Part shown: piece by piece, positions 3,556 through 48,600 of the stretch
Position numbering within the stretch: position 1 is the first letter of the stretch
Layout: each line of letters opens with the position of its first letter
Source of the DNA: Cafeteria roenbergensis
Lineage: Eukaryota > Sar > Bigyra > Bicosoecida > Cafeteriaceae
Direction: 5' to 3'
DNA: 64,000 bases
Assembly (NCBI GenBank): GCA_008330645.1
Contig: VLTN01000003.1
Location: forward strand, 1-64,000
Program-made: the position numbers and the translations under genes
The notes under the pieces: model-generated
The model's database searches: none
What the model saw: only the letters and a program-made list of their open reading frames with translations
Told to the model about the DNA's origin: nothing

Positions 3556-5343
3556 CGACGGGCGGCGGCGGCGCAGCGGCAGCTGGTGCGGCTGGCGCTC
3601 CAACCGGCCAAGAGACATCTGATGCCGCACAGCCGAGAGCGGATGCGGCACAGGTCTACTCGGTCAGGCGAACGCCGGCGATCGGGTTGGCCAGGGACGG
3701 ACCCGACGCGGACGCGGACGGCAACGACCCCAACTGGAAGGGCATCTCGCTCAAGAAACTCGTGATGCGGGCGCTGAAGCGCTCAGACCGCAGCGATGCG
3801 ACCAAGGAGGTGGGCGACATCCTGCTGCGATGCGAGGAGGTCGCCAAGGGAGCCTACCGGGACTACGAGCGGGACAGCAAGGAGTACAAGGACGCCTGCA
3901 CCGAGGCACGGTACTTCAGGCCGGACAAGGACTGCGTCGTGGGCAAGGAGGCCGACCTTCATGCCGCCAGGGTGAAGAAGCGCTATCAGCTGGCGCACGT
4001 GTGGAGGTCGGACATCGCGGGGGCTGTCGAGGGCCTGGAAGAGCTGCGCGCCGAGATCGAGGAGCTGGCGCTGGAGGCGATGATGGAGCTCAGATCTGAC
4101 GACGAGTCGTCGGATGACATGGAGGCAGCGGCAAACCTGGTGGAGGAGTTCATCAGGGCCTGCAAGGGAGCCCGCTGCCTGGCCGCAGCGACAGGGTTCG
4201 AGGGCTTCTTGCCCGACACCTTGGGCGTGCTGTCGGATGACCTGAAGGCCAAGCTCCGCAAGTGCCTGTACGGCGACGGGGTGACGGCGCGGGCGAACGA
4301 GCAGACCGAGGCGCCCTGGCAGCGCAAGATGGTGCTGCATCACGACGACATGCTGCGCATCAAGCACGAGTGTGTGTCTTCCTGCGCCGTCTGGCCAAGG
4401 CGCGCAGGGCCTGCACAGCACGCTGCAGGGCCGAGGCGCTGGCAAAGGGCACGCCGGAGAAGCGTGTCGCCAACATCGACGACCCGGCCATGCTGCGCGC
4501 GTCATGAGCGACCTGGTCGCGTTCCGGGAGGCATGCGTGCCGGGAACGCACTACTGGCTCCGCAACACGATGATGGGGCCCCGCGGGCTCACAGACGAGG
4601 AGTTCGCGGTGGTGGAACGCTACCGCATCGGAGCCTCCGAGGCCGACCACGTGGTGCCGGACGGCGTGTCGATCAACTGCGCGTGCGTGCAGGGGGACAC
4701 CACGGCGAGAGGCACTGTCCACATCGGCGGGGTCTCCGGCGTGGCACACCACCTGGCGCGTTGCCGCTGCGGCAAGGGCTCCACCATCCGGGCGCACAAC
4801 GACGTCCGCGACGTCCTCTTGCACGCAGCGGTGCGCTCGGCGGGGCTGCAGTCGGTGGTGGAGCCCTCCAGCTGGCAGGACGGGCAGCGCGCGCTTCGGG
4901 TCCCAGCCGGGGTCCAGCGAGGCCGCGCGCAAGCGACCGGACCTGCGGGTGCACGTCGACTTCGAGACCACCCGTCTCGTCGACGTGCAGATCACCTCGG
5001 CGGTGAGCAAGTCCTACGTGACGCAGGGCCTGCAGAACATGGACGCCTTTCTCGAGCGCCGTGAGAATGACAAGATGAGGGAGTACAAGAAGAGCTCAGC
5101 TACAAAGGACAACTTGAGCTCCATTGTGCCCTTCGTCATCACGACCACGGGACGCATGGGACCGGCGGCCTTCGCCTTCCTCAAGAAGGTGGCGGACACG
5201 GCCTTTGGTGACCGGCCGAGGGAGCGTGCGCGCTGGGCCTTTCGCTGGCTGTCGAGGCTGAACGAGGTCATCGCCAAGGGACTGGCGACCCAGCTGATCG
5301 GGCAGACGCAGTACCTGCGACAGCAGGTGGAGCGTATGCGGTG
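3500..5343 (+). pseudogene. Linker and restriction-like endonuclease region of LINE copy 1
   Basis: A helical, charged linker (about 3700-4370) leads into the endonuclease region. Seen directly are a CAC...H...H...C.C cluster, IRAHNDVRDVL, and RPD followed 14 residues later by LVDVQI, the PD-(D/E)XK pattern of LINE restriction-like endonucleases. The final residues before the stop are QQVERMR. Compared with copy 2 there is a two-base insertion after HECV near 4375, another near 4500, and small differences near 4820 and 4890, so the domain is spread over several frames here. Confidence 0.75.
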
Positions 5344-6432: not shown

Positions 6433-7889
6433 CGCGGGAAGCGGTGGCGGAGCTTGATTCTGACGACGCGTCGTTGGATGGCATGCAGGCAGACACCCTG
6501 GTGGACGAGCTCATCAAGGCCAGCAAGGGAGCCCGCTACCTGGCCGCAGCGACAGGGTTCGAGGGCTTCTTGCCCCGCACCTTGGGCGTGCTGCCGGGCG
6601 AGCTGAAGGCCAAGCTCCGCAAGTGCCTGTACGGCGACGGGGTGACGGCGCGGGCGAACGAGCAGACCGAGGCGCCCTGGCAGCGCAAGATGGTGCTGCA
6701 TCACGACGACATGCTGCGCATCAAGCACGAGTGTGTCTTCCTGCGCCGTTTGGCCAAGGCGCGCAGGGCCTGCACAGCACGCTGCAGGGCCGAGGCGCTG
6801 GCCAAGGGCACGCCGGAGAAGCGTGTCGCCAACATCGACGACCCGGCCATGCTGCGCGTCATGAGCGACCTGGTCGCGTTCCGATAGGCATGCGTGCCGG
6901 GAACGCACTACTGGCTCCACAACACGATGATGGGGCCCCGCGGGCTCACAGACGAGGAGTTCGCGGTGGTCACCCGCTACCGCATCGGAGCCTCCGAGGC
7001 CGACCACGTGGTGCCGGACGGCGTGTCGATCAACTGCGCGTGCGTGCAGCGGGACACCACCGCGAGAGGCACCGTCCACATCGGCGGGGTCTCCGGTGTG
7101 GCACATCACCTGGCGCGCTGCCGCTGCGGCAAGGGCTCCACCATCCGGGCGCACAACGACGTCCGCGACGTCCTGCACGCGGCGGTGCGCTCGGCGGGAC
7201 TGCAGTCGGTGGTGGAGCCCTCCAGCTGGCAGGACGGGCAGACGCGCTTCGGGTCCCAGCCGGGGTCCAGCGAGGCCGCGCGCAAGCGACCGGACCTGCG
7301 GGTGCACGTCGACTTCGAGACCACCTGTCTCGTCGACGTGCAGATCACCTCGGCGGTGAGCAAGTCCTACGTGACGCAGGGCCTGCAGAGCATGGACGCC
7401 TTTCTCGAGCGCCGTGAGAATGACAAGATGAGGGAGTACAAGAAGAGCTCAGCTACAAAGGACAACTTGAGCTCCATTGTGCCCTTCGTCATCACGACCA
7501 CGGGACGCATGGGACCGGCGGCCTTCGCCTTCCTCAAGAAGGTGGCGGACACGGCCTTCGGTGACCGGCCGAGGGAGCGTGCGCGCTGGGCCTTTCGCTG
7601 GCTGTCGAGGCTGAACGAGGTCATCGCCAAGGGACTGGCGACCCAGCTGATCGGGCAGACGCAGTACCTGCGACAGCAGGTGGAGCGTATGCGGTGAGCA
7701 GGGGCGGCTGAGTGGCGACTCGTGGCAGCGTGATGGCAGGGATCTGGGACTTGGGACTTGGGATTGCGGGTTTGGCGGGGTTTGTGATTCATCGGTGATG
7801 GAGTTGATGGATTGGTGATTGGTGAGTCTGTGACTCGAGTGTGTGGCATGGTTATGCGAGTTTTTGACCCCCCCCAACGATGTTCATTC
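6433..7889 (+). mobile_element. RLE-type LINE, copy 2, 5'-truncated
   Basis: This copy matches copy 1 from about 4063 to 5536 at very high identity. It carries only the end of the linker, the endonuclease region and the 3' tail. From 6444 it reads openly through HECVFLRRLAKARRACTARC, where copy 1 has small insertions. It has an in-frame TAG at about 6886-6888, where copy 1 has a sense codon. After that it is open to the stop at 7695-7697. The endonuclease core is RPDLRVHVDFETTCLVDVQI. The 5' truncation is typical of incomplete reverse transcription. The copy ends at the same C tract plus AACGATGTTCATTC and abuts a dispersed repeat. Confidence 0.85.
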
Positions 7890-8296
7890 TAAACCTTGCG
7901 AGTGCATGTGGCTCTGCTTTCTGCGGCAGAGCTGCGCCTCGCCGATCGTCAATCGTCTTGCGCCCTTCGAGAAGCGAGCGCAACCGGTGCTCAAGCCCGC
8001 GTGGGCTTCCCGGGCGACCCCCCGTACTGTCTCGCGCGCGCGCCCCGTGTGGTGTGTGCGTGAACTCGTTTGACCCACCCTCCCGTCCCTCGGGCGACCC
8101 TGGCGGTCCCCGCCGAGCCGAATCTATAGCCACTAGGTCAGCATCGGCGATCCTCGCCTTCACTCTGCCAACCAGAAGCAAGACAGCAGTCGTGGAATCA
8201 TATTCGTCTGCGAACAAATATGAATCCCGAGCGATTTCTGGATGACCTGCGACGTTGCCAACTCGGCACGGTCTCGCGCGCGCGCCAAGCAGCACG
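7890..8296 (+). repeat. Dispersed ~400-bp repeat, copy A
   Basis: The sequence beginning ACCTTGCGAGTGCATG and ending near GCGCGCGCCAAGCAG recurs at 14163-14566 in the same orientation with few differences. More divergent, reversed relatives lie at 13089-13440 and 13866-14040. It contains a segment resembling a tRNA B box (compare GGTTCGAGCCC in the relatives), so a SINE-like origin is possible. It starts directly at the 3' end of LINE copy 2. Confidence 0.7.
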
Positions 8297-8745: not shown

Positions 8746-11700
8746 ATGGCCACTGCTGCCACCACTGAGGACAAGCTGCTGCTCGCCCTGGCAGACGCCT
8801 GTGACAGGGGCAGCACTGCCGAAGTCAGCAGACTGCTGGACGCAGGAGCGCCTGTGAACGGGATGTGGCCAACAGCAGTGAGCGCGGTTCGTGACGAGAG
8901 TCAAGTCGTGCCCAGGCGCAACGACCAAAAGAGCTGCTGCTGCGAGGCATGGAGCCGACATGAGGGTCGCCGAGAACAAGAGCAAGTCCATATGTTTGAG
9001 GCACGGAGCCCGCCACAGTGGTCTTGGCCGGGCAAGTATAATCGGCCTTGCTGCGCTGCTCTAGCGGACATCGTGATCGATAGGCAGAGATTCGCTCTTG
9101 GCTGGAGATGCGCGTCCCCGCAGTACGGAAAGACAGCGCTGTTTCGCGCGTCTGAGCGCGGCCACGTGGACATCGTGCGGATGCTGCTCGACCGTGGCGC
9201 CAGCGTGGATGCCACCGATCGCGTGAGTCAGCCCACGCACCCCGCCGCGCCACTGTCGTCGCTGCACGCCGCGTCCGGGCCCATGCCGCAGCGGATCGAA
9301 TGCGGGTGGGCGAGGCGGCCAGCTGGGTGGGTGGTCGTGGCCGCGTGGCATTGGTGTGCGGCTGGTCGATTTGCAGGAGGATGCGCTCTTGGCTTAGGTT
9401 GCGCGTCCCCGCAGTACGGAAAGACCCCGCTGCTTGAAGCATCTGAGCACGGCCACGTGGACATCGTGCGGCTGCTGCTCGACCGTGGCGCCAGCATGGA
9501 AACCGCCGACTATGTGAGTCAGCCCACGCACCTCGCCGCGCCACCGTCGTCGCTGCACGCCGCGTCCGGGCCCATGCCGCAGCGGATCGAATGCGGGTGG
9601 GCGAGGTGGCCAGCTGTGTGGGTGGTCGTGGCCGCGAGGTTAAGTGTGCGGCTGGTCGACGAGCAGGAGGATGTGCGCTTGGCTTAGGTTGCGCGTCCCC
9701 GCAGTACGGAAAGACCCCGCTGCTTGAAGCATCTGAGCACGGCCACGTGGACATCGTGCGGCTGCTGCTCGACCGTGGCGCCAGCATGGATGCCGTCGAT
9801 AGCGTGAGTCAGCCCACGGACCTCGCCGCGCCACTGTCGTCGCTGCACGCCGCGTCCGGGCCCATGCCGCAGCGGATCGAATGCGGGTGGGCGAGGTGGC
9901 CAGCTGGGTGGGTGGTCGTGGCCGCGTGGCATTGGTGTGCGGCTGGTCGATTTGCAGAAGGATGCGCTCTTGGCCGGGGTTGCGCGTCTGCGCAGGATGG
10001 CAATACACCGCTGATTTGCGCATCTGCGAACGGCCACGTGGACATCGCTCGGATGCTGCTCGACCGTGGCGCCAGCGTGGATGCCACCGACGAGGTGAGT
10101 CAGCCCACGGACCTCGCCGCGCCACTGTCGTCGCTGCACGCCGCGTCCGGGCCCATGCCGCAGCGGATCGAATGCGGGTGGGCGAGGTGGCCAGCTGGGT
10201 GGGTGGTCGTGGCCGCGAGGTTAAGTGTGCGGCTGGTCGACGAGCAGGAGGATGTGCGCTGGGCTGAGGGTGCGCGTCCCCGCAGTACGGACCAACAGCG
10301 CTGCGTGAAGCATCTGAGCACGGCCACGTGGACATCGTGCGGCTGCTGCTCGACCGTGGCGCCAGCGTGGATGCCGCGACGATCGCGTGAGTCAGCCCAC
10401 GCACCTCGCCGCGCCACCGTCGTCGCTGCACGCCGCGTCCGGGCCCATGCCGCAGCGGATCGAATGCGGGTGGGCGAGGTGGCCAGCTGTGTGGGTGGTC
10501 GTGGCCGCGAGGTTAAGTGTGCGGCTGGTCGACGAGCAGGAGGATGTGCGCTTGGTTGAGGTTGCGCGTCCCCGCAGTACAGAAAGACAGCGCTGTGTCT
10601 CGCATGTGAGCACGGCCACGTGGACATCGTGCGGATGCTGCTCGACCGTGGCGCCAGCGTGGATGCCACCGACGAGGTGAGTCAGCCCACGGACCTCGCC
10701 GCGCCACTGTCGTCGCTGCACGCCGCGTCCGGGCCCATGCCGCAGCGGATCGAATGCGGGTGGGCGAGGCGGCCAGCTGGGTGGGTGGTCGTGGCCGCGT
10801 GGTTAAGTGTGCGGCTGGTCGACGAGCAGGAGGATGTGCGCTGGGCTGAGGGTGCGCGTCCCCGCAGTACGGACCAACAGCGCTGCGTGAAGCATCTGAG
10901 CACGGTCACGTGGACATCGTGCGGATGCTGCTCGACCGTGGCGCCAGCGTGGATGCCGCCGATCGCGTGAGTCAGCCCACGGACCTCGCCGCGCCACTGT
11001 CGTCGCTGCACGCCGCGTCCGGGCCCATGCCGCAGCGGATCGAATGCGGGTGGGCGAGGTGGCCAGCTGTGTGGGTGGTCGTGGCCGCGAGGTTAAGTGT
11101 GCGGCTGGTCGACGAGCAGGAGGATGTGCGCTTGGCTGAGGTTGCGCGTCCCCGCAGTACGGACCGACAGCGCTGCGTGAAGCATCTGAGCACGGCCACG
11201 TGGACATCGTGCGGATGCTGCTCGACCGTGGCGCCAGCGTGGATGCCACCGACGAGGTGAGTCAGCCCACGGACCTCGCCGCGCCACTGTCGTCGCTGCA
11301 CGCCGCGTCCGGGCCCATGCCGCAGCGGATCGAATGCGGGTGGGCGAGGCGGCCAGCTGGGTGGGTGGTCGTGGCCGCGAGGTTAAGTGTGCGGCTGGTC
11401 GACGAGCAGGAGGATGCGCGCTTGGTTGAGGTTGCGCGTCCCCGCAGTGCGGACAGACAGCGCTGCTTGAAGCATCTGAGCACGGCCACGTGGACATCGT
11501 GCGGCTGCTGCTCGACCGTGGCGCCAGCATGGATGCCGTCGATAGCGTGAGTCAGCCCACGCACCTCGCCGCGCCACCGTCGTCGCTGCACGCCGCGTCC
11601 GGGCCCATGCCGCAGCGGATCGAATGCGGGTGGGCGAGGTGGCCAGCTGTGTGGGTGGTCGTGGCCGCGAGGTTAAGTGTGCGGCTGGTCGACGAGCAGG

Positions 11701-12743
11701 AGGATGTGCGCCGGGCTGAGGGTGCGCGTCCCCGCAGAACGGACAGACAGCGCTACTTCTCGCATCTGAGCGCGGCCACGTGGACATCGTGCGGCTGCTG
11801 CTCGACCGTGGCGCCAGCATGGACACCGCCGACTATGTGAGTCAGCCCACGCACCTCGCCGCGCCACCGTCGTCGCTGCACGCCGCGTCCGGGCCCATGC
11901 CGCAGCGGATCGGATGCCGGTGGGCGAGGCGGCCAGCTGTGTGGGTGGTCGTGGCCGCGAGGTGAAGCGTGCGGCTGGTCGACGAGCAGGAGGATGTGCG
12001 CTTGGCTGAGGTTGCGCGTCCCCGCAGGACGGGCAGACAGCGCTGCTTCACGCATCTGAGCGCGGCCACGTGGACATCGTGCGGCTGCTGCTCGACCGTG
12101 GCGCCAGCATGGAGGCCGCCGATCGCGTGAGTCAGCCCACGCACCTCGCCGCGCCACCGTCGTCGCTGCACGCCGCGTCCGGGCCCATGCCGCAGCGGAT
12201 CGAATGCGGGTGGGCGAGGTGGCCAGCTGTGTGGGTGGTCGTGGCCGCGAGGTTAAGTGTGCGGCTGGTCGACGAGCAGGAGGATGTGCGCTTGGCTGAG
12301 GTTGCGCGTCCCCGCAGTACGGAAAGACAGCGCTGCTTGAAGCATCTGAGCACGGCCACGTGGACATCGTGCGGCTGCTGCTCGACCGTGGCGCCAGCAT
12401 GGACACCGCCGACTATGTGAGTCAGCCCACGCACCTCGCCGCGCCACCGTCGTCGCTGCACGCCGCGTCCGGGCCCATGCCGCAGCGGATCGAATGCGGG
12501 TGGGCGAGGTGGCCGGCTGGGTGGGTGGTCGTGGCCGCGAGGTTAAGTGTGCGGCTGGTCGACGAGCATGAGGACGCAAGCGTGAGAGGTGACCATACGG
12601 CATCGCAGCGTGGCTTGACAGCACTGATGATGGCCGCATGTAAAGACAACTTGGACATCGTGCGGCTGCTGCTCGACGAGGGTGCCAACGTGGATGCAAC
12701 GTCCGTGGTGAGCCACCGTAGTGCCCCCCGCAATGCAGAGTAG
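8746..12743 (+). CDS. Exon-modular ankyrin-repeat protein (14 exons predicted)
   Basis: Exon 1 (8746-8877, 44 codons) is an N-terminal cap, with LLLALADACDRGSTAEVSRL. Twelve ankyrin exons follow at 9124-9222, 9415-9513, 9705-9803, 9996-10094, 10286-10386, 10578-10676, 10868-10966, 11158-11256, 11448-11546, 11738-11836, 12028-12126 and 12318-12416. A last exon lies at 12609-12743. Each repeat exon is 99 bp (33 codons), phase 0, preceded by CGCAG and followed by GTGAGTCAGCCC. The repeat core is GHVDIVR[ML]LLDRGAS. Variation sits in the first 12 codons and the last five. The fifth repeat exon (10286-10386) has two extra bases and would shift the frame if included, while skipping it keeps the frame. 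The last exon could end at its own stop or splice on at 12708. Ankyrin repeats bind proteins; the partner is unknown. An ATG at 8353 in the same frame would add a 131-residue leader, but 8746 matches the start of the related gene at 6036. Confidence 0.8.
9124..12608 (+). repeat. Tandem 290-bp exon-plus-intron units (12 copies)
   Basis: Units of 99 bp exon plus about 191 bp intron repeat twelve times. Successive exon starts differ by 290 bp except the first (291), the fourth (291 after 9705), the one after the exon with two extra bases (292) and the last junction. Introns are almost identical along the whole array, including the stretch GGATCGAATGCGGGTGGGCG and the tail GCGCGTCCCCGCAG. Because 290 is not a multiple of three, reading through an intron always breaks the frame, so the array only makes sense when spliced. 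The array probably grew by unequal crossing-over. Confidence 0.9.
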
Positions 12744-13088
12744 CCGTGAGTCATTCGCCGCAGCCGAGAGTACCCTAGCACCAGGACTCACTCTCGACTT
12801 GTCTTGAGCTGCTTGGGCCGTCGACCGAGGCTTGCCTGTGTCGCAGATCGGGAGGAACGCCCTTCAGTATTGCTCTTGCCGCGAGTGCAGGACTCTGCTG
12901 CGCGGCGCTGAGCGCACTCAGCGCAGACAACGACGCCATTCCCTCGTCACTTGGGGTCACGCGGCCTTCAAGCAGAGATCCTGAAGCTGCTCCATGTTTG
13001 TGATGAAGATCTTGTGCTGTTGTCCATTCTGTTCACCTGAATGGGCGCTGAGAGGCCGCGTGCTGGTGAAGGACTGGTGTTGACCTAA
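12744..13088. other. No gene seen downstream of the ankyrin array
   Basis: This is a unique-looking stretch after the ankyrin stop. There is no convincing coding sequence on either strand and no repeat relative elsewhere in the window. It presumably contains the 3' end of the ankyrin transcript. Confidence 0.4.
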
Positions 13089-14162: not shown

Positions 14163-14566
14163 TAAAACCTTGCGAGTGCATGTGGCTCTGCTTTCTGCGG
14201 CAGAGCTGCGCCTCGCCGATCGTCAATCGTCTTGCGCCCTTCGAGAAGCGAGCGCAACCGGTGCTCAAGCCCGCGTGGGCTTCCCGGGCGTACCCTCCGA
14301 ACCGTCTCGCGCGCACGCCCCATGTGGTGTGTGAACTCGCGTGACCCACCCTCCCGTCCCCCGGGCGACCCTGGCGGTCCCCGCCGAGCCGAATCTATAG
14401 CCACTAGGTCAGCATCGGCGATCCTCGCCTTCACTCTGCCAACCAGAAGCAAGACAGCAGTCGTGGAATCATATTCGTCTGCGAACAAATATGAATCCCG
14501 AGCGATTTCTGGATGACCTGCGACGTTGCCAACTCGGCACGGTCTCGCGCGCGCGCCAAGCAGCAG
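14163..14566 (+). repeat. Dispersed ~400-bp repeat, copy B
   Basis: Near-identical to 7890-8296 from ACCTTGCGAGTGCATGTGGC through CGAATCTATAGCCACTAGG to CGCGCGCGCCAAGCAG. A few substitutions and small indels lie near 14290-14345. It lies inside the inverted-repeat structure 13443-14822. No coding sequence is supported in it. Confidence 0.75.
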
Positions 14567-45659: not shown

Positions 45660-48600
45660 ATGGCCGACGCGGCCGACCCGCCTGCGACGCCGCAGCCACA
45701 GCGCGGCCAAGCACTGACCAAGCAACAGTTGCTTGCGTACATCAAGAAGCAAAAAGCAGAGATCGCGCGACTCCGCGGCCTCGTGGATGCCAAGGAGGCC
45801 GCCCCGGACGGCGAGGAAAGCCGAGTCCCGGATGCTGCCCAAGGTGCCGCAGCCGCTGCTGCGACGGAGGAGCTGAAACCGGACAGCGAGCGAGTGGCCG
45901 CGCTGGAGCGCCAGCTCGAGGCTGTCAAGGCCCGCGCTCGCGAGGTTGTGGCCGACCGGGTGTCCAAAGCCCGACGACAGGCCGATGGCTTCAGGAAGCA
46001 GCACAGCGACGTTGCCCGGCAGCTGGACGAGACGATGATGCAGCTGGGCCAGGAGCGATCTGAAGCCGACAGGCTCCGGGCCGAGTTGGCTGCAGCCAGG
46101 CGAGCGCTCGAGGAGGCTTCCAGCGCAACCGCCGAGCCCGCAGCTGCGCTTGAGGGCCAAGCCGCCATGGAGTCGCAGCTGCTTGCTGCCCGAGAGCGTG
46201 CCGATGCAGCCGAGGGAACCCTGGCGGAGGCGGAGGCGCGTCGCATTGAATCAGAGGCCCGCCGTGCGGAGGCGGAGGCCGGTCGCGAGGCAGCTATCAG
46301 GGAGCTTGAGGCACTTCGCCACGCTGCTGATCCCAAAAATCAGGGAGTCGACAGCATGAATGCCGACGCGGCGTCGGAGGCATCGGAGCGGCTGCGCGGG
46401 GAGCTGTCCGAGAGCAAGGCGGAGTCGGAGCGGCTGAGCGGGGAGCTGTCCGAGAGCAAGGCGGAGTCGGAGCGGCTGAGCGGGGAGCTGTCCGAGAGCA
46501 AGGCGGAGTCGGAGCGGCTGAGCGGGGAGCTGTCCGAGAGCAAGGCGGAGTCGGAGCGGCTGAGCGGGGAGCTGTCCGAGAGCAAGGCGGAGTCGGAGCG
46601 GCTGCGCGGGGAGCTGTCCGAGAGCAAGGCGGAGTCGGAGCGGCTGAGCGGGGAGCTGTCCGAGAGCAAGGCGGAGTCGGAGCGGCTGAGCGGGGAGCTG
46701 TCCGAGAGCAAGGCGGAGTCGGAGCGGCTGAGCGGGGAGCTGTCCGAGAGCAAGGCGGAGTCGGAGCGGCTGAGCGGGGAGCTGTCCGAGAGCAAGGCGG
46801 AGTCGGAGCGGCTGAGCGGGGAGCTGTCCGAGAGCAAGGCGGAGTCGGAGCGGCTGAGCGGGGAGCTGTCCGAGAGCAAGGCGGAGTCGGAGCGGCTGAG
46901 CGGGGAGCTGTCCGAGAGCAAGGCGGAGTCGGAGCGGCTGCGCGGGGAGCTGTCCGAGAGCAAGGCGGAGTCGGAGCGGCTGAGCGGGGAGCTGTCCGAG
47001 AGCAAGGCGGAGTCGGAGCGGCTGAGCGGGGAGCTGTCCGAGAGCAAGGCGGAGTCGGAGCGGCTGAGCGGGGAGCTGTCCGAGAGCAAGGCGGAGTCGG
47101 AGCGGCTGAGCGGGGAGCTGTCCGAGAGCAAGGCGGAGTCGGAGCGGCTGAGCGGGGAGCTGTCCGAGAGCAAGGCGGAGTCGGAGCGGCTGCGCGGGGA
47201 GCTGTCTGAGAGCAAGGCGGAGTCGGAGCGGCTGAGCGGGGAGCTGTCCGAGAGCAAGGCGGAGTCGGAGCGAGCCCGCCTGCAAGCGGGGGAAGAGGTT
47301 GCTGAGGTGTCGAGGCGCGCCCAGGCTCGCGCCGACGAGCAGGCTGCCCTGGTAACCAAGTTGAGAGAGGCCTTCACTGTGGCCAGGGATGCGCAGCAGC
47401 GTGCGGAGGCCCTGGCCGCCGCGGCGGAAGAGCAGGCAATGACTGCCAGCCAGGCAGAGACGCAGGCAGTTGCGGCTGCCGCTCGCAACGATGCCGAGCG
47501 GTCAAGGCTGGCTGAGGAACTGGCGGCTGCCAGAGCCGCTGCCGAGGAGAGCTCTGCTGCACTTGCAGGGCAGCAAAAGCGTGCTGAGGCCGCAGAGGCG
47601 TCCGCGAAGGAGGCGCTTCGCGTCGCCGCCGCTGCCAAGAGGGTGGCAGCGCGCATGCGGGCCGAGGGACGCAAGCTGACCGAGCAAGCCGCCGCGAGCG
47701 AGGGCACGCCCAGCCCAGACGCAGCGAGCGACGCTGCAGCATTGACCGTGGTCCAAAAAGCGCTGGCTGATGCAGAGGCCCGCCTGCGATCCATGGAGGA
47801 CCGAGAGCGCGCTGCGGCGGCGTCTGCTGCGGCGCACAATGCCAAGGCCACGGAGCTGCAGGCCGAGCTGGATCAGCTCAAATCCGCCATCGCCGAGCGA
47901 GATTCGTGGCCAGTGTCGCGATCGCCGAGGCAGGTGCTCGGCTCGATTCTCGGCGGCCAGCGCGAAGGCTCGGTGCGCGGCGCTGGCCCGGACGGCTTTG
48001 GAGCCGGTCCATCCACGCCTCCGCGCACGACTGCTGGGCGGGCTGGCGCGGCTCTGGACACACCCGGGACAGCTGCTGCGACTCAGCTTGCGACCGACGC
48101 GCTCGCGGCAATCCGGAGCCCGCCGCTCGCTTCCCAGGGTCGCGACGAGCCGGCCAGTCCGCCTCTTCCTGGCTCGCCTGCCAGCGCCGGCTCAGCACAG
48201 TACGGATCACTGGAACAGGTGCTGCTGGAGGCCGGCCGTGAGGGCCAAGGCGGCGACTCGCGTGCTGGTGCGGAGGTCCCGAGCAGCGATGCACTGCTGC
48301 GCTTACGGTCGGACAACGAGCGCCTCAAGTCTCGAGTCGCTCAGCTGAGGCAGGCATTGGCCGTGCAGGAGGCGCAATCTCGCGGGGCGTCGCAGGCCGC
48401 GAAGATGGCCCCGCTGTACGCCAGCGCTGCCACCAGCCCGTCAGGCAGCCCGCACGGTGCCGCGGCCGCACGACCTGCGGACTCGGCACCGGCTTCGCCA
48501 GCGGGGCCGTCGCCGTCCCCGAACGCGCACTTGCAGCACCTGCGGCAAACGGTGCTGCACTTCGTCACGACGACCGAGGTGTCCGAGCGACGCCGCTTGC

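Follow-up and report, generated by a model that had tools for sequence, protein, structure and literature searches.

One ankyrin repeat per exon in a gene of Cafeteria roenbergensis: tandem exon duplication and variation at the predicted binding face

Within a 64,000-nucleotide window of the Cafeteria roenbergensis genome (assembly GCA_008330645.1, contig VLTN01000003.1, positions 1 to 64,000 of the forward strand) lies a gene in which tandemly arrayed exons each encode one ankyrin repeat. The gene would specify an all-ankyrin binding protein, probably cytosolic, and we think it likely that genes of this kind grow by tandem duplication of exons, probably under selection for binding diversity. 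Its layout, the presence of that layout in 11 paralogs (this gene included) and eight further loci, the duplication of exon and intron as one unit, and the variation of residues predicted to form the binding face can all be read from the genomic DNA. The organism, a bicosoecid stramenopile, is called C. burkhardae in later papers. Contig names used below (C3, C7 and so on) denote contigs of the 36,303,456-base, 167-contig genome assembly, the 64-kb window being C3.

Gene model on contig C3

Tandem Repeats Finder delimits an array at 9097-12574 with a period of 290 bp, 12.0 copies and 92% matches, in agreement with the first-pass annotation, which had proposed 12 exon-intron units of this length. 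The 12 ankyrin exons (9124-12416, Table 1) are bounded by 12 CGCAG acceptors and 12 identical GTGAGTCAGCC donors, as had likewise been proposed for every unit, and are separated by introns of 191 or 192 bp. That every repeat exon measures 99 bp is true of 11 of the 12, each in phase 0 and coding for a 33-residue ankyrin repeat; unit 5 (10286-10386) has 101 bp. The gene also outruns the span of 8746-12743 first assigned to it, as exon 1 does start at 8746 but the terminal exon runs to 12984, and the count of 12 repeat exons, correct for the array, omits a thirteenth, diverged ankyrin exon at 12609-12707. Another candidate, a long repeat protein translated continuously through the 290-bp unit, was ruled out because the 191-bp spacers shift the frame.

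Table 1. Exons of the C3 ankyrin gene and an adjacent repeat (window coordinates)
Feature	Position	Strand	Remarks
Exon 1	8746..8877	+	132 bp, phase 0; N-terminal cap with partial ankyrin repeat (MATAATTEDKLLLALADACDRGSTAEVSRLLDAGAPVNGMWPTA); open, donor GTGAGC, 11/11 paralogs
Intron 1	8878..9123	+	246 bp; 3' part resembles 3' part of repeat introns
Ankyrin exon unit 1	9124..9222	+	99 bp
Ankyrin exon unit 2	9415..9513	+	99 bp
Ankyrin exon unit 3	9705..9803	+	99 bp
Ankyrin exon unit 4	9996..10094	+	99 bp
Unit 5	10286..10386	+	101 bp; +2 frameshift when included, frame intact when skipped
Ankyrin exon unit 6	10578..10676	+	99 bp
Ankyrin exon unit 7	10868..10966	+	99 bp
Ankyrin exon unit 8	11158..11256	+	99 bp
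Ankyrin exon unit 9	11448..11546	+	99 bp
Ankyrin exon unit 10	11738..11836	+	99 bp
Ankyrin exon unit 11	12028..12126	+	99 bp
Ankyrin exon unit 12	12318..12416	+	99 bp
Thirteenth ankyrin exon	12609..12707	+	99 bp, diverged, other flanks; donor GTGAGCCA
Terminal exon	12847..12984	+	138 bp, TGA stop (IGRNALQYCSCRECRTLLRG...HSLVTWGHAAFKQRS); gene model; aligns in paralogs
Dispersed repeat upstream of ankyrin gene	7891..8294	+	52 matches genome-wide

Pfam recognises ankyrin models in exon 1 with four repeat exons (PF13637, 5.9e-48; PF00023, 1.4e-41) and in the thirteenth with the terminal exon (PF00023, 3.4e-11). Over exon 1, the terminal exon and five of the 13 repeat exons it gave, apart from these, one unrelated sub-cut-off match and no ROC-COR or NB-ARC domain. 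In comparison with solved structures the best of 480 matches were ankyrin-1 and designed ankyrin repeat proteins (DARPins). In DARPin numbering the exon boundary would separate position 2 from position 3 within the fingertip loop, and a duplicated, lost or skipped exon should therefore leave a proper solenoid in frame.

The first-pass annotation had held that all exons are symmetric and that the frame survives any skipping or duplication, which applies to every C3 repeat exon except unit 5. This symmetry would equally permit combinatorial splicing, whereby the skipping or choice of exons yields many isoforms per gene, as described for brown-algal ROCO genes: excerpts of PMC11378527 report Ectocarpus ROCO isoforms with different sets of leucine-rich repeat (LRR) exons. 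When unit 5 is included the joined C3 exons shift frame and reach a stop at position 444, and without it they form an open frame of 485 residues; a full-length protein thus needs unit 5 to be skipped, if the assembly is correct. Unit 5 may indeed be a skipped exon, but it may also be a dead exon in the C3 copy or an assembly error, and combinatorial splicing as the principle of these genes seems to us rather doubtful.

Paralogs and further exon-per-repeat loci

A search with the promoter and exon 1 region matched at 11 places on nine contigs, defining 11 paralogs including the C3 gene. They hold 143 repeat exons, from three to 25 per gene, and the arrangement proposed from C3, one ankyrin repeat per exon with phase 0 on both sides, is seen in the paralogs also: 141 of the 143 are 99 bp long, the others being the 101-bp exon of C3 and one of 108 bp in C91. 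Over all 160 repeat exons scanned, 158 have 99 bp and none contains a stop codon. Were the differences between exons to fall randomly, stops would be expected in 23.6 of 141 exons (minimum 12 in 300 trials), against none observed, and the exons are therefore constrained. Intron lengths are indifferent to reading frame, leaving a remainder of 0, 1 or 2 on division by three in 30, 69 and 46 of 145.

The range of exon number bears out the expansion at the DNA level that had been suggested, as does the recurrence of identical exon DNA in C68, whose 18 exons comprise only seven distinct sequences, and in C91 (24 exons, 19 distinct). The C68 array shows higher-order repetition, a block of three units (about 887 bp) coming back along it. 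We considered and rejected an exchange of exons from gene to gene, there being no cross-gene pair with exon nucleotides 1-42 in common (pairs among the three C94 genes excluded); the nearest-neighbour exon lies in the same gene for 106 of 141 exons and in another gene for 35 (C94 genes counted apart). A mobile intron family was likewise rejected, as a search with the exon-plus-intron unit led back to the array contigs and otherwise matched only parts of exons, on C51 and C103, no intron-only search having been made.

Family members sit no more than about 18 kb from the end of the contig on eight of the nine contigs (C136 is itself only 19 kb). These ends are not established telomeres, and repeats can interrupt assemblies; a search for TTTAGGG-type telomere repeats, the only motif tried, gave no match. 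Reading the locus as a pseudogene, or as a satellite repeat near the end of a contig, would accord with this location, with the frameshift of unit 5, with a terminal exon that is altered in C7 and stops after two residues in C91 (which may be decay or assembly error), and with the reverse-transcriptase open reading frame (ORF) and dispersed repeats nearby. Such an origin is nevertheless very improbable when 141 of 143 exons stay at 99 bp with no stop in any, every one of the 11 paralogs has an open exon 1 of 132 bp, and nine have a terminal exon that is open across its shared part.

The splice signals were counted with each family exon taken once, regrouped from per-locus rows in which five C94 exons had fallen in two overlapping loci and the C136 family exons had been pooled with 'others'. 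AG stands directly before the repeat in 143 of 143 exons and GT directly after it in 141, the two misses being the 101-bp and 108-bp exons. At the best alternative offsets AG is found in 64 of 134 (+8) and GT in 67 of 134 (+4, a position within GTGAGT itself). The TBP gene of this genome has an intron with GTGAGC...CGCAG ends, like those of the array, and that gene was checked by reverse transcription PCR in strain RCC970-E3 (PMC6972860). The three TBP primers of the C. roenbergensis genome paper match the gene here, two of them perfectly and the third with one mismatch.

Exon-per-repeat organisation extends beyond the family. A protein search with a single repeat, of whose 1170 candidates 150 were scored, matched many contigs, with neighbours often 310-345 bp apart (C34, C60, C7), and eight further loci chosen from its matches have repeat-matched phase-0 exons (C51, C103, C101, C155, C29, C78, C61 and a second C136 gene). 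In seven of these (profile matches: C101 8, C51 9, C78 7, C103 6, C155 5, C29 12, C136 2) AG is exact in 49 of 49 and GT in 48 of 49; in C61 AG is exact in all 12 and GT in 11, one exon (C61:206688) having a GC donor (GCGAGA) instead. Ankyrin loci on C28, C33, C45, C46, C48, C77, C82 and C86 are intronless, with AG in only 7 and GT in 1 of 111, but since these eight were picked for their long open ankyrin frames the contrast describes two gene kinds and not a random sample. The genome thus holds at least two kinds of ankyrin genes. All six exons of C103, an old array, keep size and phase although the donors vary and the mean difference among the five introns is 49%, for which copying alone is an inadequate explanation; the splice sites of the exon-per-repeat loci look conserved, not just copied.

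Diversity, divergence and selection

Residues were numbered by anchoring the repeats on a DARPin consensus. The six most variable positions are then DARPin 3, 5, 14, 10, 13 and 2 (120 distinct peptides; the same with 124), the very positions randomised in an artificial ankyrin library according to excerpts of PMC3308923, a set looked up once the entropies were already known. The classic DARPin set (2, 3, 5, 13, 14 and 33, as excerpted from PMC8248824), which had been named before the entropy analysis, has a mean entropy of 2.63 versus 0.82 elsewhere (permutation p 0.00002), position 33 being only moderately variable (1.37). Alanine 9 and leucine 21 are almost fixed, and amino-acid change tracks the contact residues codon by codon. 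Variation is clearly concentrated on the binding-face residues.

Within each of the 11 genes the exons differ by 13-28%. Introns were compared by aligning all those of 60-420 bp, a comparison restricted to equal lengths underestimating their difference. Across 17 array rows (of which C94a and C94b overlap and mix genes, and C136 mixes two genes) intron difference ranges from 3% to 49%, so that the near-identical introns first described are a property of C3 (mean difference 6%) but not of all arrays. Introns are less different than exons in 11 of the 17 rows (C3, C14, C7, C68, C71, C91, C101, C51, C78, C136 and C155). Profiles of ten genes place the diversity maxima, synonymous sites included, at exon nucleotides 1-42 and the last codons; diversity is low in the exon core and, in most of the ten, at the start of the intron, and in most it is raised over the final 40 bp of the preceding intron.

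The ratio of nonsynonymous to synonymous differences (pN/pS) is 1.24 at seven contact residues (confidence interval, CI, 1.00-1.56) and 0.51 (0.45-0.60) at the remaining residues, with 0.85 over all codons, which suggests positive selection at the contact residues; at the six positions of the artificial library the other exon-per-repeat loci give 1.22. Several observations weigh against the explanation we prefer. The seven-residue set was chosen post hoc, with the entropy already seen, the six DARPin positions named beforehand give 1.22 with a CI of 0.94-1.58, and the library six give only 1.06 in the family. Synonymous sites near the contact codons are also raised (pS about 0.34). Intronless ankyrin genes have the same contrast (pN/pS 1.36 versus 0.51), so that contact-residue variation is not tied to the exon-per-repeat structure, the entropy at the six positions being lower in the intronless genes (1.77 versus 2.91). 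In six of the 17 rows (C29, C61, C88, C94a, C94b and C103) the difference among introns equals or exceeds that among exons. Finally, unit 5 disrupts the reading frame of the C3 copy unless skipped, and two of the 11 paralogs have the disturbed terminal exons described above.

An alternative is a neutral tandem array, its layout a by-product of copying each exon with its intron and its diversity owing nothing to selection. Copying alone would be expected to produce the young arrays C3, C91, C14, C7 and C101, whose introns are 3-7% different; contact residues have a pN/pS close to 1 (1.06 to 1.24), and the 5' half of the exon (nucleotides 1-42) is never common to two genes. We nonetheless judge a neutral array unlikely, as it sits poorly with the constraint implied by no stops where 23.6 were expected, with the pN/pS of 0.51 outside the contact residues, with the location of the variation on the binding face, and with the retention of phase-0 exons in C103 beside introns 49% different.

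The diversity profile itself, peaking at the exon ends even at synonymous sites, raised just before the exon, in the final 40 bp of the intron upstream, and low in the core, could point to targeted hypermutation of exons or templated conversion as the source of diversity, instead of selection opposing homogenisation. This is scarcely credible to us given that, codon by codon, amino-acid replacements coincide with the contact residues and that no identical exon 5' halves are found between genes, and linked selection yields a diversity shape of the same kind.

Under the explanation we prefer, selected tandem duplication of exons in an all-ankyrin gene, each 33-residue repeat corresponds to one symmetric phase 0-0 exon, and a single solenoid would result from splicing of the repeat exons. 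Within arrays, unequal exchange and conversion would alter repeat number and keep many introns alike, and selection would maintain differences at residues that would touch ligand. The likely outcome is a small, fast-evolving set of binders of differing specificity.

Neighbouring features and known systems

The dispersed repeat upstream of the ankyrin gene has a direct copy at 14165-14565, 97% identical and 6.27 kb apart, the pair flanking the gene. An ORF at 2008-3555 matches reverse transcriptase (RVT_1, PF00078, 7e-14) and is probably part of a retroelement. The tandem segments 4136-5189 and 6497-7542 (about 1 kb each, 2.36 kb apart, pieces 88-99% identical) are perhaps retroelement 3' ends. 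A 42-bp repeat at 46383-47272 (21.2 copies, 98% matches) lies within a 1045-residue ORF that has a GRIP domain towards its end and resembles a golgin whose coiled coil has recently expanded. A photosynthetic host was also considered and rejected, no chlorophyll a/b-binding match being found.

The first-pass annotation had supposed that introns of ankyrin genes seldom follow repeat boundaries so closely. Vertebrate ankyrin genes (ANK1-3) have many repeat-matching exons of 99 or 198 bp, and these repeat exons are old and diverged; they share with Cafeteria the ankyrin solenoid and the matching of exons to repeats, but the Cafeteria genes are tandem arrays with a variable number of units. The closest known precedent in print for genes of the C3 type appears to be the LRR-ROCO genes of brown algae which, according to excerpts of PMC11378527, have one LRR per 72-bp phase-2 exon, positive selection on the concave face, and splice variants. 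Both are stramenopile genes with tandem symmetric exons of one structural repeat each and with binding-face variation, and the constant exon length and phase that mark exon-per-repeat genes are found in the C3 family (141 of 143 exons of 99 bp). They differ in that the algal genes as there described add a ROC-COR GTPase to their phase-2 LRR exons, whereas the Cafeteria genes have 99-bp phase-0 ankyrin exons and no other domain in the parts scanned, and in that isoforms and selection by site models are reported for the algae, isoforms being conjectural and selection no more than suggested for Cafeteria. Brown-algal NB-TPR genes, which the same excerpts cite for shuffling of tetratricopeptide repeat (TPR) exons and for splice variants, are a further comparison; they differ in those repeats and in their nucleotide-binding (NB) domain.

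Libraries of the DARPin type, in the portions of PMC8248824 and PMC3308923 used here, resemble the Cafeteria repeats in that residues 2, 3, 5, 10, 13 and 14 vary on an otherwise constant ankyrin framework; they are artificial, and the classic library randomises position 33, which is only moderately variable in Cafeteria. Bathycoccus prasinos is likewise a protist with a large ankyrin family in its genome (149 copies), but it is a green alga, and repeat-matched exons are not described in the excerpts of PMC3491373 consulted. Our literature searches, limited in extent, turned up no earlier description of Cafeteria ankyrin genes with one exon per repeat. According to excerpts of PMC7852580, the Cafeteria genes whose expression rises in stationary phase are enriched in ankyrin repeat genes taken as a class, an enrichment that does not establish expression of the genes described here.

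One may go further and envisage a genome-wide, natural DARPin-like receptor repertoire with one ankyrin repeat per exon, its binding surface varied by tandem duplication and by combinatorial splicing of interchangeable phase-0 exons, and perhaps serving to recognise invaders inside the cell; as a whole this is quite improbable. In multicellular brown algae, receptor genes with an exon for each repeat and with diversified binding faces have been considered as a potential source of immune diversity, and the same plan built with ankyrin in a unicellular stramenopile would suggest that it originates more than once or goes far back in the group. Cafeteria is a bacteria-feeding host of giant viruses and a laboratory model for giant viruses and virophages, and as a culturable organism would allow changes of exon number, the choice of splicing and binding to be measured.

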